From: Dryococelus australis
Lineage: Eukaryota > Arthropoda > Insecta > Phasmatodea > Phasmatidae
Direction of reading: 5' to 3'
NCBI GenBank assembly: GCA_029891345.1
Contig: CM056998.1
Span: 174,788,239 to 174,852,238, forward strand
Length of the DNA stretch: 64,000 bases
Part shown: piece after piece, positions 2,236 through 54,496 of the stretch
Layout: the number at the start of each line of letters is the position of its first letter
Numbering within the stretch: position 1 is the stretch's first letter
Program-made: the position numbers and the translations under genes
Notes under the pieces: generated by a model
Seen by the model: the letters and a program-made list of their open reading frames with translations, nothing else
What the model was told of the DNA's origin: nothing
Database searches by the model: none

Positions 2236-3458
2236 TCTCCTTATGCGACGTAGACTAATCAGGGCAGTGAGTAAAGAAGAGAGAAAATTCTTATGCGGGA
2301 ATGTGGAACTGTCCCCTCATAAACAATTTAATTCTCTCTTGCTGGGCTTCTGTAGTGATCCCAGCTCTGTGCTCGGTGCGCTCTTCTCTCATTACTCGAA
2401 TTACGTGCTGGCAGGCTGCACGAGGCAGGTGGCTGGCTTGGACGTATTCTTGCAGTGGCGGAGTCGGCTAGACAAAACTATCTCTCTCTGTGTCACGTAC
2501 TGGGCTTATCTTCCCTCTCTCTCTTCACAGCTGACTGGTGGGCTAGAAGCGGTGCGTGTCTTCTTGGAGTGTAAAGTGAGTGTCGTGAGGGGTATCCACC
2601 AGTGTTGGTGATAACGCGTGGCCTTCTTGATTATAGTGTGCAGACCTACATCTACAGCTGTAAGTAAGGCTTGGTTCCGTACAATATGGTTCTTACGAAC
2701 CTAAGAGAGCAAAACACACGGAATTAGTTATGAACCTTGGGGAGCAGATCGTTTTTTTTTTATGTAAAATTTATAAAAAAAATTATAGAATGATATATTT
2801 ACAAAAGACAAGTGTGCCCAAGACCCCACTTGCAAGGCGTGTATTCTAGCTATCTGCTGTGGCCGCCTGGTGCGTTAGAGTATTTAGGCCCTGCCTTCGG
2901 CCACCCTATCTTAACGTACAGCAGAACAAGTTGTAAAAAAAACTATGGAGTTTGCCAGCCGAGACCTTACGTCATCTTGTCTGCACACTAAGTTGGGATG
3001 CGAGTGTATTGGCAAAATGGGGAAACAAAAGACTTACTTCACCATCTTACATTGATACAGAGAAGAGAGACACAGAAAGCATTTGTTACACATAATGCAC
3101 TTGAATTCTTTGAAAAATTGAGACAAAAGATTTTCTTTTATTACCACGTTCTTGATGTCTTGTTAAACAGTCCTTTTGTGGTTTGACTTTAGCATGAACA
3201 GATATTTTGACATACACAAACATGCTTAGTTACAATTCTGATTGGCTGAATTTTGCACTGACCATAAAACAAAGATCATTTATACAAAACATAACTTGAA
3301 CATTATAACATCATTACTGAACTTGACTCTTATTATTTATTTACATACTTTACTTCTGAGAATTTTACGCCTCTTTCATTGCATTTATAGCGAACGTTAA
3401 CAAATATGTGCTAGTTTCATTAACTGTGACGCGTGCTCGATTAGACTGACTTAGCATG
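2236..3458. other. No clear gene; mixed repeat-derived sequence
   Basis: An open frame of 122 codons exists at 2243-2611 (+), but its composition is not gene-like and it resembles nothing I know. The rest is AT-rich, with scattered short open frames. I see no supported feature. Confidence 0.3.
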
Positions 3459-6392: not shown

Positions 6393-8215
6393 TTAGTCCG
6401 GTTGACTAAACCCCTCACTACCGGGTGATAGTAGGGACTGGTGCAGACGAGTCGTGGAAAATGAATATAAAGTACCACATGGACAGTCGAGACTGCCTGT
6501 AATCTCAGTGAGGCGGCGCAGTCCCGTTCCGCCTATCTTTCCTGCATAGGATGGGCCAAGGCCAGCCATATTTGGCTGGCCTTGGCATGAGGCGACACTG
6601 GCACCGTCAGGGGCAGGCCTTGGGATGGACCATCTTCTTTTGCCCCTCCAGCTGAAGTAGCTGTGTCTCCACATTCCGAAGCGGAGAACGCGTCCGCAGT
6701 CACGATTGCTTCCGTCTCAGTCCCAATAATTGGAGCGGATGGCGATTCCTCCAGGTACTGAGCGGCCACCGGCACAAGCTCAACGAGGGTCTTCATGATT
6801 GGTTCATTCAGGTGGAAGTTCTGAATTGACCGTCGCTGTTTGCCAGGGTGGTTGGGAACATTCCACCGGTTCTTCCTGGTGTGGCCGGGTGTTCCCCTTG
6901 AGGCTTCGTGATTGCGGTTTGTATCGATTCCAGGGAAAGTGGTCTTCTTTCCATGGCTTTTGACATGGTGCTCTGCATCTCTCCCCTTTCACAAATGGGG
7001 TTCGGCAGCGGCCGCAGTGGTAGTTTCTGCCAGTCTAGAGGGCTGCCCCATGATAACTCATTGGCGCTTGGGGTTCACCTCCTCCCTCGTGTCTCCATTT
7101 TACTCTTGAAGTCAGTGAGGGTAGATGGCAGCATACAACTTGCAGACCATGCTGTTTTTGGTGGCCCCGTAGGCCAAGCGGGTGGAAAACAGTTCGTTCC
7201 TTGGCTGGCTGTAGTTTGTGCTGTGGGCACCAGCTTCTCCATTGAACCCGTTGGTGGGCTCGTCCAATTCCACTGAGGCTTCAGAGGTTATTTCAGCTAT
7301 CTGCACTTCAGACTCAGTGCTCTCATGTGGGAAGGGCCGGATTTGTCCTCGCATTGCCTTGCGAATTCACCCCCAGAGGTCTTCCACCCAGTAGACGTCA
7401 CGCCAACTGAAGAGATTTGGACGGCTCGAGGTCTTGAGAGGACCACCTTATAGGAACCTTCCCACTTGCAGACGAGGCCTGCGCTAAACTGGTTACTAGA
7501 CTTACTGAGCGGATGGAGTTGCAGTATTTTCAGGATCTGCCTATATCAATGTTTGTGGTCATCCCCAATACTAAGGTGCAGAATTTTCTTTATATCCTGA
7601 TTTTTCCTCTCTGTGAGATTTGCTTGTGGGTGGTAAGGTGTGGTGGTCTACATCTCCACCCCCCATTCTTTGCATGTGGCGAGCCATTTCCGGCCTGTGA
7701 ACTGTGTTCCATTGTCTGTTAAAATGCATTGTGGTACTCCCACCTAGTGAAAATTTCGGCCTCGAATTTTTCAATGATGTAATGCATCTCCTGGATGAGA
7801 TGGGGAAGTGCTTCTACCCAGTGGGAAAATAGGTTGTTAACGACAAGCAGGTAACAGTTGCCGCGAGTTCTTCTTGGGTATGGGCCCATTGCGTCTAAGG
7901 GCATCAGGAATTGGCCATTGGGGTGGTACTGGGTATGCCTTTCCTCTGCAACATTTATCGCAGCTATCCATTTACTGACGGATGTCCCGGCTCATCCCGT
8001 CCCAGATATGTCTGGCTATATCTGCTTATTTTTCCGTGGTACCCAGGTGTGCAGCTTCCGGGTGATCGTGATAGTGATAACAGATATCCACGTGTAGGGC
8101 TTTAGGTACCCAGATCCACCATTTTGCCCCGGGTTGACCGTTGCAGGACCATACAACTTTGTTATGGATTTCAAAGCGTTTAGCGTGTGTTTTAAGTAAT
8201 CCCTGTATCCCCGGG
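6393..8215 (-). mobile_element. Ty3/gypsy pol remnant (integrase zinc finger, core and C-terminal part)
   Basis: Minus-strand frames give an integrase region in pieces. Near 8190-8000 lie the H2C2 zinc-binding segment with HDHPEAAHLG and the CDKC pair. Near 7904-7720 lies MGPYPRR...YLLVV...WVEALP, the first catalytic block. Near 7720-7600 lies a GTQFTG block followed by a YHPQAN-type segment. Below that, a diverged C-terminal region runs to about 7100. Several frameshifts and stops interrupt it, so it is dead. RT and RNase H are missing: the remnant abuts family A copy 2 at 8215. At 6393-6560 it contains the HPVVRGL-type peptide also seen in family B, which suggests that A, B and this pol come from one lineage. 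Confidence 0.75.
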
Positions 8216-8217
8216 TC

Positions 8218-9560
8218 AAGTGTAGGTGTGAATTGCTACAGCCAACTGTGCACCCGACTCTTGATTCCCCCACCATAGGTTTTGGAGTCTTGAACTGCAA
8301 AGCGTTGGCTGCAGGAACTGCAGGTTGTTGTCCGAATGGGTTTGGTCTCCTTTGCACCGGAGTGTAACCCCAATTGGCACCACTAAGTGTGTGATGAGAG
8401 GAATTCACCCCAGCCGGGAGCGTACCTATTTTGTCGTGGCTCTACCGTTCCCTCCACCTGGATACAAGGAATGGGTGGCCTTCCCATAGTGGTGAGGTGA
8501 GTGTCCCAAGGTCACTGGTCTCCCCAGGCTCAAAGAAGTTCCCCATCTCAGCACCATTGCGTGTGCAGTGAGGTGGGGGCGACTTCAAGCCGGCAAATCA
8601 CTTTCCAGGGGATGGTATCCTAATATCGTAGCTCTAGCATTCACTGCATGGGGCAAAGAATGGGTGGCCTTCCAAGCATGTTTTGTTCTGTTAGTGTGAA
8701 TTCAGAAAGAGCAAAACCTGGTCCCCTGCTGTCCCTGTCAGATCCAATGAGGGTGAAGAGGAGGAGATCGGAGTGATACTCAAGAAGTTAGGCAAAATCA
8801 ATGTTTATTTTGCAGTTTAGGAAAATAAGCAGAGATGGTGGAAGTACTACCTCCTATCCACTCAGGCGTGGCAGAAGGTACACACCCTAGCATAAAACAG
8901 GGGAAGGTGCCCTGTGCAAAGTTAAATGGAGTGGGCAATAACTGATGCATGCGAACTTAGTTTTCTCCTCTGGGTTCTATAAAGAACCAAACATGTATCA
9001 GTGTGAGGTGCTGATGACGCCGCTGGTGCTTCCTTTTGTAGACGGTTGGAGGGGATCTTCGGCCCCGTGAGGTAGCAGTGATGTGTTTAGAATTGATGCG
9101 GGCCTCTGCACCACTTAGGTGTGCAATGAAAGCTCAGGAGAGGACAGGTCAAGAACTGAAGCAGAAATGATCATCCGGAGGCCGGGAGCTCTTCACCTTA
9201 TATACCCGTAGGCCATCCCTTCCTTCATTGACATAGTGCATCTGGAGAGGGGGTTAGCAGGTGCAAGTCCAGTGCCTAGATCCTCTGTGCGAGCGGCACA
9301 GTGGAGAGTTATGGGATCTAGGCATCATATTTGTGGAGGCATCCCGCGGCACACTGCTGTACTAACCCCGGCCCACTTGCATGGTCGCTGTGACTCATCA
9401 GGCGAAATAATTTCCATTATTGGGACATCTATCCCGGCCTGGTTGCTACAACAAACTTGTAGGCGGTGGCAGTGATTCAACTCCGTTGACAATTGCTAGT
9501 GGTGTAGTTTGCACTGGTGAGTAGTAGCAGTTTATTAATAAGTATAAAAGACATAATGCG
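8218..9560 (-). repeat. LTR-like repeat, family A, copy 2
   Basis: This second family A copy is in the same orientation as 973-2235. On the minus strand it reads AATAAAC near 9530, then a TATATAAGG promoter box near 9200, then AATAAA near 8805, then the TGGCTCTACC / GGGTGGCC modules near 8440-8670. It directly abuts the integrase remnant at 8215. In minus-strand order the LTR-like unit precedes truncated pol, consistent with a 5' LTR whose gag and RT were deleted. Confidence 0.55.
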
Positions 9561-10170
9561 TCAATACAAATTACAAATCTCATTTTCGAGATACGTGATG
9601 ACAGACAGCTCTGGTGAACCCTGTACAGGGAGGGTGATTGGGGTGAAGAGAAAGTTAGAAGTGAGGAAGTGAGAATGTATCTGGCTCTTGTCACATGTTA
9701 TGGAGGCGGAGACGGCTGGCAACAAGGTGAGGAAAACTTGCTGTGGTTGCACGCCGCTTGTGATAAAACACCTGCTTCCACACGGCTGATGGCATTTCTA
9801 AGAAAAGCTCATTTTAACAAGTCAACAACAAACAGTAATCAAAACCCAAGAGAAATCCAAGATGCAATAATGCAAATAAAGTGAGAAGTCAAGTGAGAGT
9901 GAGCATGATGGCAAGACAAGCATGTGACAATAGTTGTTTTGCTCGCAGGCCTGAGTGGTTAGGGATGTGTGCAGTCAATAGGTTGATGTGTGTGGCGTTT
10001 TTTAGATTATTACTTAATGACTACGACTCATCAACCATCACATATTTTACGTAACCCGAGGAAGGGTCGAACCCAGAGTAATTCACAAGTGCCTACAGGA
10101 TCACTCCCAGCCTACTGAGTGATTGCAGACATTTGAATAATTCAAGCAACTCCATTTACAGGCGCCGGCA
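9561..10170. other. Unassigned; short open frame and B-box-like motif
   Basis: A 71-codon open frame at 9669-9884 (+) is unrecognised. GGGTCGAACCC at about 10065 looks like an RNA polymerase III B box, and GAGTGGTTAG about 110 bp before it like an A box. The spacing is too long for a tRNA; an old SINE is possible. Confidence 0.3.
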
Positions 10171-13478: not shown

Positions 13479-13674
13479 TACAGTAATACCTGGTTAATTC
13501 GTAGTGCTCAGAACCAAATTTTTTGACTTCGTATTACATAATTTTGAATTATTGAATTTAAATAAAAGTTTGTTTATATGTATTAAAGAAATGCACATTT
13601 TCCCTTTCCAAAGTAAACACAGCTACGGCAATAACAAAACATTCACCGATTATTACGGCAAAAGAAATTTGTTT

Positions 13675-14157
13675 TTAATTAAAATACAGTTCCGCATGAC
13701 CAAGAATATGCATATCACCAGTAGTACCAACTAACTTCCAATACAACCAAATCTGATCACCCAGATCTAATTTCATCTTCTTACATGAGAACATGGATGC
13801 ATTACCAAATACACTAATAACAGCAGTATTATCTGCCTTCCCTTCATGAACAGGATACATCTTCCAACATACTATGTCACGCGGATCAATATCACTAATT
13901 TCCTTAGGCATAGGCTCCTTTTGTGTATGAGACTTTCTAAAGAAACACAATTCTAACAAACCCCTACCTGCCTTAGCAGTTATTCCTTGAAGACCAAAAC
14001 TGCACAAAAACAACAACAAAATATAACTCTCTTCTACATCAACAACCTTAATGGTCCAGGACCTATTATTCTTATTGACATCCTTACTGAAAGACAAAAT
14101 ATTACGGTATACCTTCTTAGGATAATACCTAGACACACGAGTCTGACGAGGCATCAC
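13675..14157 (-). CDS. 160-aa basic ORF, candidate capsid-like protein of a CRESS-like virus
   Basis: The frame is open and uninterrupted. The first 20 residues are rich in Arg and Lys (MMPRQTRVSRYYPKK), as in the N-terminal DNA-binding arm of many small ssDNA-virus capsids. The middle and end alternate hydrophobic and polar residues, and the end (GDQIWLYWKLVGTTGD) looks like beta strands. About 230 aa is usual for circovirus capsids, so 160 aa would be short. I do not recognise a named family; the capsid idea comes from charge pattern, position beside an origin hairpin and divergent layout. The first two codons are both ATG. An intact frame in an intronic insertion suggests recent arrival, or retention. 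Confidence 0.4.
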   Translation of the reverse strand: MMPRQTRVSRYYPKKVYRNILSFSKDVNKNNRSWTIKVVDVEESYILLLFLCSFGLQGITAKAGRGLLELCFFRKSHTQKEPMPKEISDIDPRDIVCWKMYPVHEGKADNTAVISVFGNASMFSCKKMKLDLGDQIWLYWKLVGTTGDMHILGHAELYFN

Positions 14158-14992
14158 AACAATGTGTCTTCTCTAATGACACAGAGCGAAATGAACTACG
14201 CGAACTTGTTACAACCGTTATATAACTGCGGAACTGTTAAAGATGAGAACTATAGATAATATTAAAGAAGACGTAAAGTGTAGCCCAGAGATAACAGCAC
14301 AGCGCGATCATATCGCTGCATACACTGTACTCCGTACCCGGCATGGTAACGTTATCTCTAAATACACAGTATACCTGCAGTTTGTATCTTTGTCATTATT
14401 GTACTGCTGGAGTGATTGTGATTACATAACACTTGGTTTGACCGAATTTGGTTAATAAGTTTGGGCGTTATTGCAATTTCAGTTTACAAGGTTATGGTCT
14501 TAGAGTATCTCGGGCAACAGCATATAGGCACTAATATTACTGCCTGCTGTCACATTTAATATTAACTGCAAGTATGCTGTGTATTTAGAGATAACGTTAT
14601 CATGCCGGGTACGGAGTCCAGTGGACGCAGCGATAACATATCGCACTGTGCTGTTATCTTGGGGCTACACTTTCTGTCTTTTTTTAATGTTATCTATGGT
14701 TCTCGTCATATCAGTTCTGCAGTTATATTACGGTTGTAACACGTTCATGTAGTTCATTTCGCTCCATGTCATTAGAGAAGACACATCGTTATGATGCCTC
14801 TTCAGACTCGTTTGTCTAGGTATTATCCTAAGAAGGTATACCGTAATATTTTGTCTTTCAGTAAGGATGTCAATAAGAATGATAGGTCCTGGACCGTTAA
14901 GGTTGTTGATGTAGAAGAGAGTTATATTTTCTTGTCGTTTTTGCACCATTTTGGTCTTCAAGGAATAACTGCTAAGGCAGGTAGTGGTTTTT
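13968..14992. repeat. Long inverted repeat, arms about 415 bp, spacer 184 bp
   Basis: The left arm 13968-14380 and right arm 14565-14992 are reverse complements with scattered substitutions. The inner edges share TGTGTATTTAGAGATAACG and the outer edges share CTGCTAAGGCAGGTAG. A transcript through the block would fold into a long hairpin. Confidence 0.85.
14517..14550 (+). other. Stem-loop with TAATATTAC nonanucleotide (putative rolling-circle origin)
   Basis: ACAGC (14517-14521) pairs with GCTGT (14546-14550), and AGGCA (14526-14530) pairs with TGCCT (14541-14545), with a 4-nt bulge ATAT on one side. The loop CTAATATTAC contains TAATATTAC, the nicking-site nonanucleotide of geminivirus, circovirus and related origins. 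It lies in the spacer exactly between the two divergent ORF copies. Confidence 0.65.
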
Positions 14993-14994
14993 AA
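14791..14994 (+). pseudogene. Truncated inverted copy of the 160-aa ORF
   Basis: This 67-codon frame repeats the first part of the minus-strand ORF at 14157 with few changes (MMPLQTRLSRYYPKK at the start; GLQGITAKAG near the end). It then breaks off at a T-rich junction near 14990. Only the N-terminal third to half survives. It is the right arm of the inverted duplication. Confidence 0.6.
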
Positions 14995-15240
14995 AAAAAG
15001 GCAAATATTTGCAGGAAATAGCCCAAAAAATAAGTTTGTTGCATTTATCGTGGTCACTAATTATGTTCACGTGCAGTAAAATATAGGTGTTGTAATTGTT
15101 GCCTTTAATTGTTATGTCAAAATATAAAAAAACAGAAATAAAATGGTAAAGCTCGGTTAAAAACTGCAGTCATGGTAGCCAGTATCCTCTCGCTCCCTCT
15201 ATTATGAATGCACTTCCTGCGAATGTTGATAAAAGTTGAA

Positions 15241-15364
15241 AGCCGGATGCCGTATGCTTGCACAATTTCAGTCTTGCTATTCTCGTTTTTGTCCACTTCC
15301 CTGATTATTTGAAATTTGTCTTTGCAGTGTACTATCGCTTTTTCTCGCTCATCTTGTTTATAAC
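15241..15364 (-). pseudogene. pogo/Tigger transposase N-terminal HTH fragment, copy 1
   Basis: On the minus strand the frame reads HCKDKFQIIREVDKNENSKT then EIVQAYGIRL, the CENP-B-type DNA-binding helix-turn-helix of Tigger transposases. No catalytic domain follows. A nearly identical 124-bp segment occurs at 18862-18985. Confidence 0.7.
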
Positions 15365-15679
15365 ACAAAAATACTTACAGCATTTCGCTTGCAGTGAATT
15401 TTTTCAACTCGCTCAAGATTAGTTGTCAATCTTCTAATCTTCGCAAACAAATACTTTCCGAATTTTTTTTTCAAACATGGAGTCTGGAAGGGAGGGGACG
15501 GCTAGAGAGCCCTCCAGGGGTGGATATTTTTCATGGGTTTGGGGGTAACAGCGGGGTTGCCAGTTCTCAATCCCACACTGCCTGGTCAGCCAGCCAGGGC
15601 ACTGGGGTCAAGTGCTGTGCGGTTTTTGTGTCATCAAGCAGCACCCCTCGCTTAACTAGGTTTGGCTTCTGAATAGGTC

Positions 15680-16090
15680 GCTCCCTTTTTCATCTTCTTT
15701 GCTCCCCTCCCCGGTCTTCAGTCTAACCACCACCGGCTGCCCGCCATACCTCCGGTTAGCCATGCCGCCCACACCACTACACTCCCTTCCTCCTATCCTC
15801 CATTCACACCCACACCACTACTCTCCTTATCACTCTTCACAAACAAACCATGCCCACACAGCACCAAGCTTCCTTCCTCCCTTGCTCCCGCCCCGCTGTA
15901 CTTCAGCACCACTCTAAGCTCTCTCCCACACCCGTACTCTCTCTTTCATCTCTTTTTCTTCTCCCTTCCCACTCTGTACATCTTCCTATAATCTGCATTC
16001 TCATCCTCTTGCTCCAAACACCCCCAGCCCCTTTAGAGGCAACTGTCACAACAGACAGCCCAGAATTTTCTTTATCCTACTCTCCCTAAT
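15680..16090. repeat. CT-rich (pyrimidine-biased) stretch
   Basis: About 400 bp of C/T-rich sequence with frequent CCTCC, CTTCC and CACACC lies inside the 5' side of the Tigger element. Long open frames here are an artefact of low stop-codon frequency. Confidence 0.6.
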
Positions 16091-16524
16091 CTCCCTAACT
16101 TCACGCAGTGCGTGGCACTAGCTGTCACATCTTTTCACTTCTTCAGCAGGCAGACTAGGTGACGAAAACCAGTCAACAGATATGAAAACTCTGGCACTAT
16201 CAATGACATCACTGTGGCGGGCGACAGCAGTGGCTGCATCAGCTGAATGCCGCACCGCCACCCATCGCTGGTTTACTTGCGTGCACCCGTGACAGTGTAG
16301 ACTATGGGTGTTTATTATCATAATTGTTATAGCTTTGATTAATTAATTAGAACTTCACATACACTTTTGGTTGAAATCCAACATCGAATTATATAAAAGG
16401 CAAATTTTGAATTAACCAAACTTAAAAGCATATAAAATCCTATTCTTCCATTTGGGGGCAAATGAACACTTCAAATTAATCGACTTGGAATTAATTAACT
16501 TCAAATTAACGAAGTTTTACTGTA

Positions 16525-18861: not shown

Positions 18862-18985
18862 AGCCAGATGCTGTATGCTTGCGCAATTTCAGTTTTGCTA
18901 TTCTCGTTTTTGTCCACTTCCCTGATTATTTAAAATTTGTCTTTGCAGTGTACTATCACTTTTTCTCGCTCATCTTGTTTATAAC
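18862..18985 (-). pseudogene. pogo/Tigger transposase HTH fragment, copy 2
   Basis: This 124-bp segment is almost identical to 15241-15364, with the same start and end points. It encodes the same helix-turn-helix with one or more disabled codons. It joins directly to a fragment resembling one end of family A (18990-19105). Confidence 0.65.
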
Positions 18986-28112: not shown

Positions 28113-30008
28113 AAGATAAGAGGTATAGCTTAACGACTGGACGCATCAGGAGTCCGTGGGTGGTATGGAGTTGAGCCACTCGCACTATTCTAACTTCTCC
28201 AGGGAAGGTCTTGATCGCACTAGCAAGTTGCCAACCAAGAGATGGCACATTGGGATCTTGAATCAAGACAAGATAGCCTGGCTCAAGATTAACTGAACTT
28301 GCTGTCCATTTTCCTCGAATTTGTTGCTGGTGCAGGTAGTCCTGATCCCACTGGTGTCAGAAATCTTGATGAGTTTTCTGTAGTAGATTCCATCTTGACA
28401 GACGATCAGAAAGCACAGCTGTGAAATCTTCATCAGGAACAGCTTGTGATGGTCCCAATGTTAGAAAATGACTTGGTGTCAATAGAGTGAGGTCAGTAGG
28501 GTCTGTAGAGAGTGTTGACAATTGACGAGAATTAACCACTGCTTCAATTTACGTAAGCACAGTGTAGAATTCCTTGTACGTCAAGATCTGGGTCCCACAA
28601 ACCTTCAAAATGTGTTGCGGCTGGGGATTGAAGTGCCTCTTAATGTTTTGGTCACATAAAGATTTTGGGATCTCTGCATGATTTTTGGCATTAGAGAAAA
28701 TATTGTTAAACTGTTGGATCTTCCTACCAGTGCCAACAAAATTTATTCCGCTGTCACTAAATAGCTCTGTACAGCAACCACGCCGAACCACAAATCGTCA
28801 TAATGCTGCCATGAAAGCCTCAATGGATAGTTCCGATACCAGCTCAAAATGAAGAGCCTTGGTTGAAAAACAAACAGAGATAGGCTTGTAATGTCCTTGG
28901 TTTTCGACCTATGCCCATTATGATGGTGAAGAGTGTTGCATAGTCCACACCTGTTTTCAAGAATGATTTTGCTGGAGTGATCCGCTCACCGGAAGACCTG
29001 CCATCGCAGGTGTCATTGGGTTGGGCCAACAACAAAAATAAATCACGCACTTAAGCAACCGCTGTCTAACCTCATCTTGCTCATTGACAACCCAGAATTC
29101 CTGCTGAATAACAGACAACAAGTGTTGCAGCCCTGGATGAAGTATATCTTTATGCAGTTGGTTGATTATCAGCTCTACCAAACTACACTTCATTGGAAGC
29201 AGTACGGGGTGCTTCTGGTTATAGAGCAACGATGAATGCTTGGAGCCCACCGCCCACCCTAAGAATACCATTCTTTTCCACAAAGGGATTCAGCCTCTTC
29301 AGGGAGGCTGAGCACTCCCCTTTTGTTATGGCTGCAAGCTCTGCACAGGATTCTACTGCCTGGGTTTTCTTAACCCAAAACAAAACAGATGCCTGTAACT
29401 CTGTAACAGTGAGGGGTCCTGTAACTTTTTGTGTTGTCTGGCTTTATTAACTCAGTGAAGCAAAGGCAATATGCAGTTATTCATTTTTGCTTATTCCAAA
29501 ATGAATATTGATCAAGCAATGAAAAGTAAATATGTTGCACATTTCCATTCAGAGACATTGGGGTATGACTTTCGACAGACAAAAATTCCTCCGTGTTTGC
29601 TCTTACTTCAGACTCACAAACTGGCTGGCAGGGCATTGGGCTGGCCCTCATCCAGGAAGGCCCTGTCGACCAGATGTGATGGCATCAAGCCCCTCGAGAC
29701 ACAGTCTGCAGGATTGTCCTCTGACCGAACATAGTGCCACCATTCTGGTGGTGTGTTTGTCTGTATTTCCCCACGCTATTGGCAAAAAAAGTCTTCCAGT
29801 GGTGAGATGATGACTGGCTCCATGCCAACATCACTGTTGAGTCAGTCCATGCAAAAACGTCACTAAAGTTAAGTTGGATACCGAACACTGTCAGCACATA
29901 GCAAATAGTCTTTGCAAGAAGCAATGCTCCACAGAGTTCCAGTCTGAAGATAGAAACACACTTTGTTGGGGCTACCTTTGATCTTGGTATTATCATGTGC
30001 ACATTCAC
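28113..30008 (-). pseudogene. BEL/Pao RNase H, integrase and DUF5641-type C terminus
   Basis: The pieces occur in order across several frames. RNase H: FRLELCGALLLAK, then VFAWTDSTVMLAW. Integrase zinc-binding: HKDILHPGLQHLL. Integrase core: LFSDSGINFVGTG. The final domain ends near the residues LLMRPVVKLYLL. At least three frameshifts are needed. Confidence 0.75.
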
Positions 30009-30670
30009 TGGACCACTAGCAGGAATGAATTTAACATATACTACTGCAGCATAGTCCTTCTCAGAGTTATCTGAGAATCAGAAGTTCCAACCTCGAGTCT
30101 GGGGAACTCACCAAGGGTCCTCGAGGATTGGTAATCTGCTTGATAAAAGGGAGTTCCCTCCATTGAGTCCACCTCATTTGTTTGGCCTGTAACAATTCTT
30201 CATCTCATCCGACCCCAGTAGCAATAATGGCGATAGCCACCCAAGCAGATCGAAAATATGTGCCAAATCAGATAAGACATCTCGTTTGGTCAGCACTCCA
30301 CCTGGTGATCGTATCTCATATGAAAATACTTCGCTACTTGGCACCCACTGTAGACCAAGAACCTTTAGTGGAGTGGCTCCATCAGCATCACTGAACAGAT
30401 GCTTACTGGGCTGTTGAAGATGGGACTAATGCAGTGCTGCCAGAAACTCAGAGCTATTTCTTGCAAATTTCCTAAGGCAGAAGCCACCTGATTGCAGTAT
30501 ATCCACCCACTCCTGCTGAAGTGCTATGGCTTCCTGCCCCAACTCTGCTCCAGTCCACCACATCATCCACATATATATCGGTTTTTAATACTATGGCAGC
30601 ACGTGGGAACTGTGACCCTCATCATCTGAGAGCTGACAAAGAGTGCAAATAGCCAAAAAAGGTGATGCAG

Positions 30671-31259
30671 TTAAACTCCATAAGTGACTGTCTTCAACCT
30701 ATATTCCATTACCCTTGAGGATGTGTCGAAACACCAGAGTATACATTGGTAGTCTTGATGACATGGATCAGTCAAGATCTGCCTGTACATCAGTTGAATG
30801 TCTGCTGTAAGGGCAACTGTATGCAACCGAAAGCAGATTATTGAGTCACTAATGTCACACTGAAGTTTTTGTGCTGAGAGCAGTACCTCATTCAGTGAAT
30901 ATCCCAATGATGTTTTGGCTGAGGCATCGAAAACAACTCTCAGTTTGGTGGTCGTGCTGTCTGGTTTCAAGACGGAGTGGTGAGGAATGTAATATGATGA
31001 ATCCTGGTTGACATCTGTTTCTGGTATCTCCTCCCTAGGGCCTGATGCCAAATAATATGTCAGAATCTGGGTGGAGAAGGTTTACCTGTGGGTTGAGACG
31101 AAATTGCCGCTCTAGATGGTACAGTCTTCTTACTTCTCCGTACTTCACCCCGTGACTCTCCAAGTTTTGGCTCTGTAGATTTGAATGGAAGCACAACCAT
31201 GTTCCTTTCATTAGGCTCTCTGCGGTGTGTCGGCTGTAAGGATTCTTCACATTGAGCAA
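30671..31259 (-). pseudogene. BEL/Pao reverse transcriptase region
   Basis: YYIPHHSVLKPDSTTTKLRV and VFDASAKTSLGYSLNE are hallmark RT residues of BEL elements; ALTADIQLMYRQI continues the domain. The palm catalytic YVDD region downstream is not intact in one frame. Confidence 0.8.
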
Positions 31260-31459
31260 CCTCAGACGTGATTAGAACTGCTTTAGGCACCTCTCCCAAT
31301 TCCCAAAACTTCCTTACACTCTCTTCCAAGGACATCGCTGATACATGGAGACATGTAGTCACAAGTGATGTTGATCTCGCATTAGTGTCCACCCTGCCCA
31401 TCACTAACTACCCGAAGATTGAGTCCAGTGCAACTGGTGAACCTAGACCTCCGTCTATT

Positions 31460-31760
31460 CTACCACTGGTCAGTAAAAGTGGGATCCGCACCAGCTGGCT
31501 GGATGCAACATGTTGCGACATCCTTTACCTCCACAACCAGAGAACCATCAATATCTTTCACCAATTGTGAACATCTTGACCTCAGCACCTCCAACCTCGA
31601 AAGACAGTTGCTAGTAATAAAATTGGCCTGACTACCAGAGTCCAACAATGCACGACACATCTGTATGTTGCCAGTAGTATCCCTTACGCCAAAATTGGCA
31701 GTTGCCAATAAATTGAATGATGCAGGTGCAGTGTTGATTAGTGAGGTGGTAGGTCAATAC
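31460..31760 (-). pseudogene. BEL/Pao aspartic protease (DUF1758-type)
   Basis: The active-site motif DSG is in CRALLDSGSQANFI, followed by the LEVLRSRC region. The frame connects toward the RT region with breaks. The upstream edge is damaged by an inverted duplication at 31724-31790. Confidence 0.75.
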
Positions 31761-31790
31761 CTTACCACCTCACTAACCAAAACTGCACCT
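31724..31790. repeat. Inverted repeat, arms about 30 bp
   Basis: AGGTGCAG...TTAGTGAGGTGGTA (31724-31751) and its reverse complement (31762-31790) flank about 8 bp. It sits at the protease boundary inside the BEL element and disrupts the frame. Confidence 0.85.
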
Positions 31791-31840
31791 GTGTCTGCGC
31801 TTTGCTGTGAACTTGAGTCTTGGTTGGGCGACACAAGTTT

Positions 31841-32345
31841 TCAAAGTGCAGAATTGTGTGGTGTCTCCTGTTGCAGGTTTTGCAGTTGGTTCTGTGATGG
31901 GCACTCCTTCGCCCTATGAGTAGGCCGTAAACAATTAATGCAAATGTTGCACTGTTTTGCAATATCAAAGCACTCCTTGTACGACTTAAGTGAAAACTGT
32001 GGACACTTGGGTAACGAATGAGTATCCTGACAAACAACACAATGAGGCCTAGGAATGACTGTGCTGCAAGTTAACCAGATGACTTTATGTATATTTGGTG
32101 CTACCCTTGTGTGTTGTCTTGGGTTTTTGCCCTCCCCCAAGTGACTCCAGCATCCTCTCTCTTCCTCCCAAAAATGATAAGAATTGCTCTAAAGTAGCTA
32201 ATTGATTAGGATCTGTAATTGTTAGTTCCCACTCTCTTGTGAGGCTCATTTCCAACTTTGTCTCCAGTAAGTGGAGTAGCAACAGATCCCAGGTATGCAC
32301 AAATACTCCTAATACCTTCAGTGCTGCAACATTCTAATTAATAGT
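31841..32345 (-). pseudogene. BEL/Pao gag, C-terminal part with two zinc knuckles
   Basis: After the 2.4-kb break gag resumes with ALKVLG and LLLHLLETKL. It ends in two CCHC-type knuckles, which bind the packaged RNA in the family. The frame is shifted at least once between these segments. Confidence 0.75.
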
Positions 32346-41849: not shown

Positions 41850-43180
41850 CATAGGTGCAACTGCATCCCTGGCAGTTTGTCTACCAAGTCACGATATTGC
41901 CGCCGCCTACAAGATTGTTGTATCTACCAGGTCAGGACAGACGTCCCAATAATAATTTATTATTTTGCCCGATGAGCCACCGAGACCATGCAAGATGTCC
42001 GGGACGAGTACAGCAGTGTGCCGCGGGATGCCGCCACGTGCAAGATGCCTAGATCCCACCGCTCTCCACTACGTTGCATGCACAAAGGATCTAGGTGCTG
42101 GGCTTGCACCTGCTAACCCTCTCTCCAGGCACCCTATGCCAGTGAAGGAAGGGATGGCCGAGGAGTTTATAAGGAGATGCATCCCGGCCTCCGGATTGTC
42201 AGTTCTGCTCCAGTTCTTGATCGCCTCTCCTGAGCTCTCATCACTCCAGCTATTGGTGCTGAGGCTCAAACCTCTCCTAGTACTTCACCTCTCACCTCGT
42301 GGGGTCGAAGATCCTCTCCAGCGCAACCTAGGGAAGAACCAGTGGCGTCGACAGCTTCACACTTACATGTTTGGTCCCTTACGGACAACCTGAGAGTAGA
42401 GCTCGCCCTGAGGTTTAACATTACGCTACACGCATCAGCTACTGCCTGTCCTAGTAGTTTTGCACAGGGTGCCTTCCCCTGTTTTAAGATAGGGTGTTTT
42501 ACCTTCCGCCTAGCCCGTGTGGAATTAGGAGATAGCACCTCTGCCATCTGTGTTTATTTCCTTAGGGTCAATAAAGACAGATCTTACCAGATCTCTTGAC
42601 TTTCACTCAGAGCTTCTTCCTTGTCTCATCATAGAGCTGGAGGACTCAGCAGAAGACCAGGTTTTGGTGTGCCGAACTTACACAAACACACCAGCACATC
42701 CTTTGAAGGCCACCCATTCCTTGCCACAGCAGTGAATGGTGGAGCTACGACACTAGGATACCGTCCCTTGGATGTTGGCTTTCCGGCTCAAAGTCGCCCC
42801 CCCCCCCCCCCCATCTCACCGCTCACTTTGTGGTACCGAGGAGGGTATCTTCTTAGAGTCCGGGGAGACCAGTGACTGTTGGATACTCACCTCACCAGTA
42901 TTGGAAGGCCACCCATTCCTTGCACCAAGTGAGAGGAACGGTAGAGCCACGACACTAGATACGCTCCCGGTGGGATCAGTTTGCCAGCCAGGGTGCTGAA
43001 CTCTCACTGCTCACTGGTGGTGCCGAGAGGGTTGCATTCTGATGCAGGGAAACCTACCCCCACGGGACAACACAGTGCGGTTCCTGCAAACATCACCCCG
43101 CAGCTCGTGCCTTCCATACCTGGGGGAGGAGTCGAGAGTGAGGCTGTGTTGGCAGCAGTAATTTACACTTACACGTCAAC
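41850..43180 (+). repeat. LTR-like repeat, family A, copy 3 (plus orientation)
   Basis: This is the reverse complement of copies 1 and 2. In this orientation the promoter order is plain: TTTATAAGG near 42166, initiator TTGTCAGTTCTG about 30 nt later, and AATAAA at about 42571. The module GGCCACCCATTCCTT...GTAGAGCCACGAC occurs twice (42708-42750, 42907-42957). A 16-bp C run lies at 42797-42812. Confidence 0.6.
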
Positions 43181-44463
43181 TGCCTACCTTCTGCAAACCC
43201 GATTTTGTGTATAAATGCCTCCCACCTAATTGAGAGACAGGCCAAGAAGGCGAGAGCGATCTCCAAAAATCCACTGGGGTTACGTAGCCTTCCCAGCAGG
43301 TTCTTGCTGCTTAGTCCATTCAAGCAAGCTGCATTGCTGAGATGTTTCACCGTACCGACACCCACCATCACACCACGCTGTAGTGCAGGAGGCACTGTTC
43401 TGCGAAAGGCCCACCAGCGCACTGGAACCGCAGCCAAGTACCACACCCGCACACACCACCCCTCAGTCTAGTGCTACCCCGGTAGTGGGAACAGGTACAG
43501 TACAGCCACGTACCAAACCACTTCGCCGCCCTACTACAACTCAACCGAAACCTGCAATATGCCGAGTAAAGTTTGTCGAGCCTGACTTCATACTGAGTCG
43601 CCGACCCACCAGGCTCTGTTGTACACCGGGCAGGCCCTGTGCCCAGACCTGAATAAACTGCCTGGAGACTCTACTCGCCTAGCGTCGAGTAAGACACCCA
43701 GGACAGGGACTGTCCGCGTCAACAAATGCCGCCCGAAAAGCTATTTTCGTGTTTACATTTGGTAATATTTAGTGGTTAAGGTTGGAATGTTGCAAAATTT
43801 TAACCATAAATTGTTTTCACTGTTTTGCTGCTAAGATCATATCGTAATGATAGTTCTTTTCATGTAAATGTTTTAGTGCGAGTTGATTGAATGAATCACC
43901 ACTACTGAAGTATACAAAGATATAATGGCACCAAAAGCTATAGTACATTATTTGGTGGCATTTCACGCTGAAAGCCAGCGATAAAACGAAAGCTGTACGA
44001 CTCCATTGCTCTAAAGAAATAGGTTGCTGTGGCAAAACGACTTGTGAATTACTCACTGATTTTCAGATGTGAGGTCCCAGTTTTTATCTTTGGTGATAAT
44101 GGACTGCAAATTTCTGGGGTAGAAATTTTTATGCAAATGATTTGAGTGGGAGCTATTTTGTTCTGTTCCCCCACTGTTTTCGCTGTTGCCTTCCAACACA
44201 TTGAGTTTCTTCTTCTTCCCCAATTAATAAAGTTGGCAGAGAATGTAGGTTTATCCCTCAAGTCAGTCCGCATGGCTTAGCAGCTGCATGCTCAAATTTT
44301 ATTCATGTAGACTCTGCCCAAACTGCATGTTTAATGCTGGTCATGTTCGTGACTTATTGAAGTACGATGATATGTAGAGACAATGAAAAATCACTATAAT
44401 GATACAGGTTCTAGTTAATGCCACAAAGCTTGATGTATGATGTCTTTATTACCTATTATCAAT
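43181..44463. other. Unassigned; GC-rich to 43740, then AT-rich
   Basis: The GC-rich part continues family A without a match to the other copies and might be the leader or internal start of its element. An 89-codon frame (43383-43652, +) is proline/threonine-rich and unrecognised. Nothing is seen after 43740. Confidence 0.35.
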
Positions 44464-50744: not shown

Positions 50745-51375
50745 TCATAGCTGCCATTGTGTTTCACCGTCTGTCCGTGACTTCCATGCTTGCCCCTCTT
50801 CTGGAACCACCACAAGCTGTCTCCTGTTCCGGCGACCCCGCCAGGTGTTGGTTTCCACCATGTAAGACTGGGGGTTGTCAGAACCAGGACTGTGCCGTAC
50901 TTGCGCATATCCGGAACCTATACGTGTCCCCCTGGCTGCAAGTGTACCAGTGTTCGAGCTCCATGGTGGACATTGTAGTTCCTGCGCGACCTCTCCTTGA
51001 CACGGCCATAGTTTCTGAGGAATGTTTGCATATGAAAGTAGCCCCAGATTAGGATCCATGGAATCAGACAAATACTCTTTGCCACTTTTACTGGACTTTC
51101 GGCAGCGCTGTTCGATTGGGGGAACATTGGGCTGGAGGTTACGTGGTCTAATCCATAATCCTTGGAAAAACACTGGAACTCCTGGGCCGTGAATTGTGTT
51201 CCGTTATCTGAGTGCACTGTTTCAGGAATACCGTGGCGTGCAAATATATTCTTTGCCACAGAACAACTCCCTCTGATGTTAGGTTCTTTAACCTCACCAG
51301 CTCAAAAAATCTTGAAAAGTAGTCTTGAACCACCAAGTAATGTACCCCAGCTGCTTCAAAATGTCCATGCACCAA
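50745..51375 (-). pseudogene. Ty3/gypsy integrase core
   Basis: GVHYLVVQDYFSRFFEL gives the first catalytic Asp. VHSDNGTQFTAQEF gives the second, and the AAESPVKV segment probably the Glu. All three acidic residues appear kept although frames are interrupted. Confidence 0.8.
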
Positions 51376-51923
51376 GAGGTTCTGCCTGTTGTACTCTCAT
51401 TTTTAAGCACTGCTGGCAATTTTCCATTAACCTGTTTATGTCCGTTGTGATGCTCGGCCACCAAACAGTCTCCTGGGCTCTACATCAACACTTTACTGTA
51501 CCCATGTGCCCTTCATGGATTTTCGTCAGCATTTCAGCCCGTAGTGACCTAGGCACAAATATTTGTGACCCTTTCGTAATGAGGCCTTCATTATATGCCA
51601 ATTGCCCTCTGAACTGCCAAAAGTGTGATTGGTTGTCGTCAAAGCCGCCCAAGATGTTACTTCAGGTGTTGGCACTCTACATCTTCCTCTTGCGCTGTCT
51701 TAATGGCCTTCAACCGGACATCGGAAAATGGCATTTCCCTAATGACTGCTTCTACAAACAGCTCCTCTTCCAAGACGTCACTACTATCCTCTGTTGGCCA
51801 ATCCACCGGGGCCCGTGACAGTGCATCCGGTACAAAAAAAACTCTTGCCTGCCACATGGGTAATCTGATATTTAAAACACATCAGGTGCATTTTCAACCT
51901 TTGCAACCTGGGGGTTAACTCAG

Positions 51924-52160
51924 TCAGTGGTGTTGTGGCCAGTAACGTGACCAATGGTTTATGGTCAGTGATAATTGTAAAGTGGGCTCCCATAACTTCT
52001 CAGGGGCCCATGTGACTGCCAAAGCTTCCTTTTTGACCTGAACGTACCGTAATTCCACCCTGCTAAGTCCTCGAGATGCAAAAGCGACTGTCCTCCACAC
52101 CGCCTGCTGGCACTGTCCCAGTACACTTCCTAAACCATAGGAAAAGGCATCTGCTAGCAC
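51924..52160 (-). pseudogene. Ty3/gypsy RNase H
   Basis: LADAFSYGLGSVLGQ and VAFASRGLSRVELRY are the characteristic RNase H blocks. The frame is broken at both sides. The following frame (51993-51784) continues with FTIITDHKPLVTLL. Confidence 0.8.
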
Positions 52161-52216
52161 TCTTGTTGCAGCTTCATGATGATATAATGCTAAAAAGGGT
52201 TGACTGCTAAGCTCCT

Positions 52217-52296
52217 TCAGTTTTTGTGTCCCCTCATGCTAGGGTTAGCCCCACACCCACTCCGTATCCTGGTGCAGCAACGTCCGCAGGGGTTGT

Positions 52297-52330
<34 letters not shown>

Positions 52331-52663
52331 CAGGTGAGGTATGAACTTCATTAAATAGTTGCTCGTGCCCAGGAATCTCTGAACCTCAGACACATTTTTG
52401 GGGTCCGAAATGTCCTTGGTTGCCCTTGGTTTTCCTGGATCCGGTGCCACAATGCCCTCTGTTATCATATGACCCAAACATTTCACCGTCTTGTTTCTAA
52501 GGCTGCATTTTGCCCTGTTAAGGGTAATGCCACTTCTCGCCAACTTATCCAATACTGCTTTCAGCTGCTGGTCATACTCCTGTATTGTGTGACCACACAC
52601 AAAGATGTCGTTTGCATGGTTGATGACCCCCGGCATGTCCCCTACTGCTTGATGATCTGCCAC
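52217..52663 (-). pseudogene. Ty3/gypsy reverse transcriptase, part
   Basis: NHANDIFVCGHT occupies the position of the Y-x-D-D motif, with Tyr and the first Asp lost. KCSLRNKTVKCLGHMI and VQRFLGTSNYLMKFIPHLA follow as in the family. The frame then runs into lysines encoded by the 31-bp homopolymer and is shifted. Confidence 0.85.
52298..52328. repeat. Poly-T tract (31 bp) inside Ty3 pol
   Basis: The tract replaces codons expected between the RT thumb and RNase H and changes the frame. On the minus strand it is poly-A. Confidence 0.9.
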
Positions 52664-53178
52664 TGATAGTGCTCTGAGCCGGAGCTGATGCCGAATGGAA
52701 GGCGATTGAAATAATACCGTCCAAAGGGTGTAATGAATGTTGTGAGTGGTACACTAGCTTGAGTTAGGGGAACCTGCCAAAATTAATTTGAGGCATCCAA
52801 AGCTGAAAACCATTTGGCATCCTGCAGTTGCACCAGGAACTCTTCCACTGAGGCAGCTCTTTGAAATCCACACATTCCTAACCGAGCCATTCCTCTTCAG
52901 CACCAGCACCATGGGTACACACTACTCTGTTGGCTCCTCCACTGGTGTGATGACTCCTCCGCTTGCCATTCATTCGAGCTCCAGCTTCATTTTGTCCCGT
53001 AAGGGCAACGGAACTCTTCGGGGTGCCACTACAGCGTACGGTTTGGCGTCATCCTGAAGTTGTATGTGGTACTTAGTTTTGAAATTACGCAGCTCTTCAA
53101 ATGCTTCTCATATTTGTTGTCACCATCCCCCTGTTCCTGCACTTCTTCCACTGTCTTCATCTGAATGATATCCAGTGT

Positions 53179-53679
53179 TCATATCACTGGCCGCCCCAGC
53201 AAGGACACCTGTTGTCCGTTTACTACAAACACTTCTTGCTGAAACTTCCTATTCTTGTGCAGCAAGGATGCAGTTGTCGTTTCTAGCACTTCAATAAGGT
53301 GTCTACCTGCCCCAAACAGCTTCCGTTCCGTGGGTCTTACTGGTAGGTTCAGATTGTGACATAGCTGCGCCCCAATGACAGATACATCGGCGCCAATATC
53401 AATTTTAAAAAAAACCATTGTCCCACACATTTTCAGCTCTATGAACCATGGTTCTGAGCAAATTTCTACAACCTTCTCGCCCATGTAATAATATTGGCCT
53501 TCCTGCCTTTCGTGCCCTTGTGGTTTCTCATGGCCCTGAGGCTCGCCCCCCAATTCCTGGACATCCACCTGACCGCAGCATCGGCCAAAGTGCCCCATGC
53601 GTCCACAACGATAGCACGTGGCCCCATTTGCCAGACACTTCGACCACTGGTGGGCTTGTGCACCCCACATTTTGAGCAT
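53179..53679 (-). pseudogene. Ty3/gypsy nucleocapsid knuckle and protease
   Basis: An open frame of 166 codons. CYRCGRMGHFGRCC fits CX2CX4HX4C. FFKIDIGADVSVIG is the protease active site with Ile replacing the Thr or Ser normally needed, so the enzyme would be inactive. HNLNLPVRPT and the VNGQQVSLLGR segment complete the fold. Confidence 0.85.
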
Positions 53680-54090
53680 TTATATGTACTTCCTTGTCTG
53701 CCACTTCTATCTATCATAGCGTACACTACCTCTTGTTGTCTTATCACCTTTTCTGTTGCGCTCACTTCTACCTTGCTGAATCACTTCCACAGCGTTTGAC
53801 TGGGCCCGCACGAGCTGCTGCTGTTGCCGCACGAATTCTGCCTGCCAGATACGCGGATACGTTTAGCAGCTCGTTCAGTCGTCAAGTCATTATCCATTTG
53901 TAATGCTTCCGACAACTTATCATCAGCAACACCAATGACCAGTACGGTTGTTATTTATTCCTCTTTAAGGTCCTTCAGGTCGCACGACTCAGCCAATTTG
54001 AAGACATCATTGATAAACCCATCTGCTGTTTCTCCTTCTTGCTTTCATTTAAAAAAATTTAGCCCATTCTTAAATCACATTCTTTTTGAC

Positions 54091-54354
54091 CTAAAAGAAG
54101 GTGTCAAATTTTCCTTTTACTGTTTTGTACTGTTGCACATCTACATCAGATAGTGCAAATGACTGGAGGAGGTCCTCTACTTCCGATCCCATACAATACA
54201 CTAACATATTGACTTGACTGTTCTCCGACTTCGTATGCAGTTTCGATGCCACTTTAAAATGTTCAAATCTTGTTATCCACTTCGGCCACTCGGCCGGTGT
54301 TCGAAAGTCAAAGTTGCCCAGTGGCACAACCTGAAATTGTGCCGATGCCGCCAT
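54091..54354 (-). pseudogene. Ty3/gypsy gag start
   Basis: The first about 88 residues, from MAASAQFQ with PAEWPKWITRFEHF, are typical of the N terminus of gypsy gag. The frame then stops and resumes shifted. Degenerate Gag text continues to the zinc knuckle. Confidence 0.8.
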
Positions 54355-54496
54355 CACTAGGTATCTCCCTGAGACACAAGGGTTAACTATCGCTCGCCAC
54401 ACCCCAATATGGTATTGGATCAACCGTTAGGCCGCACGAACATGACGTCCGTGTGAACTAAATCGTAAACTGGCACAACCAATAAGGACGTGAAAC

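Follow-up and report, generated by a model that had tools for sequence, protein, structure and literature searches.

The window, by which we mean the whole 64-kb stretch of Dryococelus australis DNA that was analysed, carries a copy of a Tigger/pogo-like transposon that is interrupted by a second element, which includes one complete open reading frame (ORF), a truncated inverted copy of this ORF, and between them a stem-loop with the nonanucleotide TAATATTAC (Table 1). A previous reading of this DNA, made from the letters only and referred to here as the sequence-only reading, described an inverted repeat with one such stem-loop, a basic ORF and no Rep gene; this block is real, and Rep is absent from it according to the ORF list and to a Pfam scan of its two ORFs. 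The limits that had been assigned to it, 13660-14995, had to be corrected, since in nine of nine other fetched Tigger copies the site is empty and, after 45-64 nt that are absent from the window, these copies resume at window positions 14990-14994; the element is therefore 13630-14990. The insertion cost approximately 60 bp of target, and a duplication was not seen. The arms of the inverted repeat, 13951-14387 and 14559-14997, are identical in 392 of 436 aligned bases (90%). From the two inverted copies of a basic ORF that had been proposed, only one is complete (13675-14157, minus strand; 160 codons from a GTG), and its product of 159 residues from the ATG has a pI of 9.3, a mass of 18.4 kDa and a basic N-terminus (10 K+R vs 2 D+E in residues 1-40), whereas the mirror ORF (14791-14994, plus strand) is a piece of 67 codons that stops at the edge of the block. 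Likewise, a single origin does lie between the ORF copies, in the single-copy loop 14388-14558, but not at the exact centre as had been stated.

Table 1. Position of the Tigger copy and of the features of the inserted element in the window
Feature	Position	Strand	Basis
Tigger/pogo-like transposon copy, insertion target, TA-flanked (13479-13480, 16523-16524)	13481..16522		End alignment; high-copy family; CENP-B_N
Inserted CRESS-type element, rearranged copy, 1361 bp	13630..14990		Junctions 13629/13630 and 14990/14991 from empty Tigger copies L070-L078
Complete ORF (159 aa when read from the ATG at 14154, 160 codons when read from the GTG) with a basic N-terminus; putative capsid	13675..14157	-	ORF list
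Second ORF copy, truncated, first 67 codons	14791..14990	+	ORF list
Fold-back left arm: leader plus ORF 5' part in inverted orientation	13951..14387	-	392/436 bases identical to right arm
Fold-back right arm	14559..14990	+	Sequence comparison
Single-copy loop: origin and region upstream of origin, naturally continuous with right arm	14388..14558	+	14390-14559 corresponds to unit positions 1032-1201 of relative L031, 70%
Origin stem-loop, TAATATTAC at 14532-14540	14517..14550	+	Hairpin scan
Putative TATA-like box (ttatataac) upstream of the complete ORF	14218..14226	-	Sequence; place matches TATATAAAG in relatives
Small hairpin caccgATTATTACggc directly 3' of the ORF; putative nonanucleotide-like site, opposite strand	13644..13659	+	Corresponding site joins the fold-back junction in relative L033

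The nonanucleotide TAATATTAC is found once in the 64 kb, where 0.69 matches are expected, and at least once in 50 of 100 shuffles; the case for an origin rests therefore on the relatives of the element. The hairpin that carries it in its loop has an energy of -7.0 kcal/mol as DNA (z -2.33), which was equalled in 3 of 200 shuffles. The genome in which the relatives were sought comprises 646 contigs and 3,415,067,245 bases; the published assembly of this species, the Lord Howe Island stick insect, is reported with 1,879 scaffolds and 3,421,391,311 bases, of which 63.29% are repeats, mostly unclassified (PMC10268593). With the 160-codon ORF as query, all 150 places that were scored, of 9495 loose candidates, have E < 1e-73. 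A 23-base stretch of the 3' end of the ORF, allowing up to 3 mismatches, was found at 944 sites genome-wide as compared with 26 in the reversed control; this figure counts sites and not insertions, given that some insertions hold two and that diverged or truncated copies escape it. In addition, one variant of the origin, with up to 2 mismatches, occurs at 140 sites and at none in the control, and TAGTGTTAC is present in many of the sites listed. Thirty of these 140 sites, corresponding to 25 distinct places, were fetched, and all of them belong to one and the same unit, of ~1.32 kb. Among these loci no second component or other gene recurs beside the main origin, and the non-unit flanks of the 25 distinct places have no sequence in common except for two short or weak matches. 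The block is one of many hundreds of sites of a family of Rep-less, virus-like circles; in the open-licence literature, and under those of its possible names that were tried, no paper naming this element was found.

Some loci of the family deserve a separate description. In a 3.5-kb locus (L014), a young copy is flanked at 121-479 and 2628-3258 by older, disrupted ORF relatives (39-59% identity); the element is represented there by several generations. Another locus (L032, C15:37027501-37033500) carries a divergent, unbroken relative of the ORF with 72% identity, which lacks the usual upstream region and runs into a stretch of N. A candidate fusion protein at C15:37029666, an open frame of 1886 aa, was discarded because in the 6 kb fetched the frame beyond the ORF is a run of N.

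When single genomic copies are compared with each other, the unit is a circle of ~1.32 kb. Copy L018 is 1397 bp long and its first 73 nt are repeated at the end, giving a period of ~1.32 kb, and copy L031, with 1350 bp and 35 repeated nt, starts elsewhere on the circle and represents a different permutation. Permuted copies and terminal redundancy point to a covalently closed circular genome; this circularity is deduced from the integrants, and no free circle was seen. Inspection by eye places on one strand of the unit a TATA box ~70 nt before the ATG, the ORF, and an AATAAA at the stop codon, with the origin ~220-300 nt upstream of the ORF and on the same strand. As far as these motifs can be read by eye, the layout is that of a circle of ~1 kb whose one unidirectional ORF has a promoter and a poly(A) signal to itself; the four copies looked at also contain further frames, the longest of 92-101 codons from stop to stop.

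A nonanucleotide at the apex of a stem-loop, as in CRESS viruses, was found in 12 element hairpins with TAGTATTAC or TAATATTAC, which belong to 11 of the 32 sources scanned, the remaining sources having no exact nonamer inside the element, and 7 loci having been omitted as duplicates. The stems of these hairpins vary between lineages yet stay paired (GTCAACCA/TGGTTGAC, GCAAGACT/AGTCTTGC and AGCTCA/TGAGCT), and their energies range from -5.6 to -10.7 kcal/mol in the 12 element places; outside elements, three places with a total of four nonamer matches gave -1.3 to -2.9 kcal/mol. The change of both sides of the stem around a constant TAGTATTAC/TAATATTAC supports the idea that the unit was a CRESS-type rolling-circle replicon. 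The CRESS-like origin put forward in the sequence-only reading is in this way well supported by the family, by its compensated stem-loops together with the circularity and the selection described below; far from being missing from all the other copies, the hairpin is present in many of them.

The HUH/SF3 Rep gene of CRESS viruses was not seen in the unit. In the whole genome, Viral_Rep (PF02407) gave no matches, as was also the case in the control genomes, and the SF3 helicase (PF00910) gave none either, with a positive control. For the product of the ORF, nothing convincing was found in Pfam, PHROGs, the PDB, 5.8 billion proteins or IMG/VR, and no exogenous relative appeared in IMG/VR; the weak matches were to NigD_N (E 0.12, with the 67-codon piece), a mannose receptor chain (E 0.78), TOBE (E 0.054, in one of 21 members) and two PHROGs (E ~0.2). 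Given that no homologue was found, its assignment as a capsid is drawn from size, charge and precedent, and a capsid protein is the most likely, albeit unproven, product; the 'capsid-like' label given before is neither supported nor refuted by the libraries searched, which hold no sequence match.

The comparison of the window copy with 26 others, i.e. 26 of 29 other loci, since L014, L020 and L028 were omitted for their length changes, gave dN/dS values of 0.14-0.20 for 23 of them; L002, L015 and L024, the copies most closely related to it, gave 0.35, 0.36 and 0.59. Among 34 full-length ungapped copies, 22 of which are free of stops, the closest pairs have a median dN/dS of 0.48 and the most distant pairs one of 0.16. 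Choosing copies by protein similarity, as was done for most of this set, lowers dN; the same trend is observed in copies picked by their origin, where the divergence is 0.069 at the first, 0.055 at the second and 0.109 at the third codon position (16 fragments). The two arms of the window copy show 12 nonsynonymous differences, including one in the codon that precedes the ATG, and no synonymous difference, the neutral chance of 0 in 12 being 0.06. The low dN/dS of distant pairs and the changes between the arms indicate that the gene was maintained by selection while the replicon multiplied, and the window copy looks to have been a fossil since then; the ORF was under purifying selection between lineages, and the window copy appears to decay neutrally. 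The distance between the arms (0.108) would correspond very roughly to 10-30 million years (11-27 calculated) if 2-5 changes per billion sites are assumed to occur each year.

The finding is real and unusual, and it differs from that proposed in the sequence-only reading: the block is the fossil, in fold-back form, of a CRESS-type circle without Rep that landed in a Tigger copy. We consider it probable that a circular ssDNA replicon of ~1.32 kb that lacked Rep, either a viral component or a satellite, was replicated in trans, and that the block is a copy of it that became endogenised and rearranged. The ancestral circle would have carried a CRESS-type origin and one ORF of 159 aa with a TATA box and a polyadenylation signal. 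A helper virus or another genome component would provide, in trans, a Rep that nicks the nonanucleotide and brings about rolling-circle replication, and the ORF would most likely encode the capsid protein, as is the case for the cp circles of multicomponent viruses associated with insects. By-products of this replication, frequently fold-back circles, may then have reached the germline chromosomes via end joining; in the window, a fold-back fragment would have landed in an old Tigger copy to decay neutrally thereafter.

Several known systems share features with this replicon. The cp circles reported for the blackfly multicomponent viruses 1 and 2 have 1133 and 1154 nt and carry TAGTATTAC (PMC6630596); these components resemble the unit in that they come from an insect sample and have a single unidirectional capsid gene, a TAGTATTAC origin and the Rep gene on a separate circle (PMC6630596). 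In contrast, the unit described here measures ~1.32 kb, is known as fossils in an insect genome and has a Rep component that was not found, the proteins being compared via database searches only. Single-ORF capsid circles of less than 1.2 kb have been described in a bug and a spider, and the capsid-only circles LfBACM-1 and SACM-2 are similarly small, from arthropods, with one major ORF and without Rep (PMC6186406); those circles are exogenous and similar to known capsids, whereas the protein encoded here matches nothing found. The segments of the Nanoviridae are also ~1 kb long, with a single ORF, a TAGTATTAC stem-loop and Rep acting in trans (PMC10434203); however, these are plant viruses, the ORF of the unit has no Pfam match, and no other segments were found here. 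The endogenous circovirus- and nanovirus-like elements of animals are germline integrants with mostly unrelated flanks as well; a 2011 survey of endogenous circular ssDNA viruses is reported to have found mostly Rep genes, of which a species generally had fewer than 10 copies, the salmon louse and Varroa having near 60 (PMC3198968, PMC4573495), in contrast with the hundreds of sites of a Rep-less family observed here. Finally, the subgenomic or defective DNAs of geminiviruses show inversions, rearrangements that keep the origin and size limits set by packaging (PMC3187698), while the copies analysed in this work are chromosomal fossils in an insect.

Circles that carry only cp or only rep are known from blackflies and from the faeces of flying foxes, and are presented in their report as having no proven host (PMC6630596). 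A Rep-less circle with one gene, hundreds of sites and traces of selection in the germline of a plant-eating insect links a replicon of this sort to the animal cell nucleus, and constitutes a rare animal germline record of incomplete, Rep-less circles; that this circle so outnumbers any Rep sequence found is a puzzle in itself. A bolder proposal, which we hold tentatively and would sooner expect to fail than to stand, is that a nanovirus-like multicomponent ssDNA virus infecting insects had a capsid-only component which, in the course of millions of years, filled one germline with hundreds of integrants, its Rep component leaving none that could be found, and that the fold-backs record the joining by Rep of the main origin to cryptic nonanucleotides on the opposite strand. 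If true, this nanovirus-like capsid component would be fossil proof that multicomponent circles infect insects.

Among the alternatives, the one that survives best is that the circle was a satellite and not a viral component, i.e. a helper-dependent circle of ~1.3 kb encoding a non-capsid protein. The betasatellites of geminiviruses have this kind of organization, with one gene, a nonanucleotide stem-loop and no Rep, in addition to a satellite conserved region and an A-rich region. A size near 1.3 kb, the lack of Rep, the 30 fetched loci (25 distinct) in which no second component shares the origin, and the lack of a capsid match in Pfam, the PDB and 5.8 billion proteins all agree with a satellite; nonetheless, a small protein with a basic N-terminus is what is expected for the capsid of a small ssDNA virus, and this description fits the product of the ORF in its charge, mass and pI. 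Capsid-only circles of similar size are also known from arthropods (PMC6186406, PMC6630596), and on this balance we regard the satellite as unlikely.

A replicon of the host itself, that is, a non-autonomous rolling-circle transposon mobilised within the genome by an HUH enzyme, be it Helitron-like or another, could account for hundreds of sites, for the lack of Rep and for the lack of an exogenous relative among the sequences searched; rolling-circle elements are reported to be still proliferating in this genome (PMC10268593), and a geminivirus-like transposon reaches 42 copies in truffle (PMC3198968). However, the fixed terminus at the nick that a Helitron-type element should have was not observed in the 25 protein-picked loci, where the ends are not fixed and 2 of 50 lie within 15 nt of the nick as compared with 1.2 expected, in a survey that omits five window-type loci. 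The permuted and head-to-tail copies longer than one unit, the target bases lost at the window site, the 25 distinct origin loci with flanks that are unrelated bar the two matches already mentioned, and the purifying selection on the ORF also argue against a host transposon, which we judge decidedly improbable.

The inverted gene pair around an origin, presented in the sequence-only reading as the design of the element, turned out to be one of many differing fold-backs. Both orientations are held by 25 of 55 distinct loci (15 of the 30 picked by protein, the window included, and 10 of the 25 picked by origin), a count that omits 13 of 68 loci, 12 of them for being the same places, plus L032, a distinct place that was omitted in error. 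That the pair is a functional architecture, with two divergent genes round one origin, would agree with this high proportion, with a span of 1.3-1.52 kb, close to the unit, in 10 of 25 fold-back copies as compared with 3 of 30 others, and with junctions that lie near the nick above chance; in effect, 6 of 19 have one side at 40 nt or less from the nick site vs 2.3 expected (P 0.02), in a test that was framed after some junctions had been seen and that omits L001 (the window), L032 and L068. Against such an architecture, the positions of the junctions vary between loci, 30 of the 55 loci are not inverted, and L018 and L031 are plain unit-length copies, so that we give it very little credence. 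Regarding how the junctions of a rearranged circle could arise, in L033 the junction CCGATTATT|GCTATGAGCTG joins, as judged by eye, the main origin to a nonamer-like hairpin located 3' of the ORF on the other strand, and in L013 the main origin is joined, also by eye, to an ORF-internal TAGTATT. One reading is that Rep joined cryptic sites; another is that short microhomology made the junctions, and several others look like microhomology. The span of 1.3-1.52 kb could hint at a packaging size.

The breakpoints of the origin-picked loci are in excess in an 80-nt stretch directly 3' of the ORF (unit positions 636-715 of L031:3459-4808), which holds 12 of 92 compared with 6.0 expected (P 0.016; the count omits 6 of 30 loci). 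The same stretch holds 21 of 25 3' ends in the protein-picked loci, counted by hand. This excess is only noted, because BLAST may stop early in the T-rich stretch located there; the excess could reflect fragility or a nick-like site, or else an artefact of alignment.

With respect to the transposon, the Tigger frame that had been proposed is supported: its ends, TA-CAGTAATACC, lie at approximately 13481 and 16522 and are confirmed by a high-copy family, although their alignment score of 38 is barely above the best of 500 shuffles (maximum 37, mean 22). A CENP-B_N match is located at 15120-15368 (E 2.3e-05). This fragment, the terminal inverted repeats and the TA target are those of a Tigger/pogo element, and the viral insert has none of them. 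When the region 13483-13680 was used as query, its first 147 bases corresponded to a high-copy repeat (40 scored of 989 candidates), and beyond query position 148, into the element, only the window copy continues among the 40 scored, the other 39 ending at the junction. That the block is viral cargo moved by Tigger, or a virus-transposon hybrid, as had been suggested, would agree with its place between Tigger ends with a TA on both sides, but is rejected for the copies scored in view of these 39 hits and of the nine empty copies out of nine fetched; in these copies, Tigger is the target only.

Other repeated sequences were noticed in the window. A 124-nt stretch at 15241-15364, which overlaps the CENP-B_N match, is 95% identical to 18862-18985, and it lies outside most of the fetched Tigger alignments. 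Open frames at 28957-32188 and 50745-54426 (minus strand) resemble, by eye from their translations, remains of BEL/Pao-like and Gypsy-like retrotransposons, and a long dispersed repeat is present in three copies, one of them inverted, at 1051-2227, 8215-9565 and 41959-43203.
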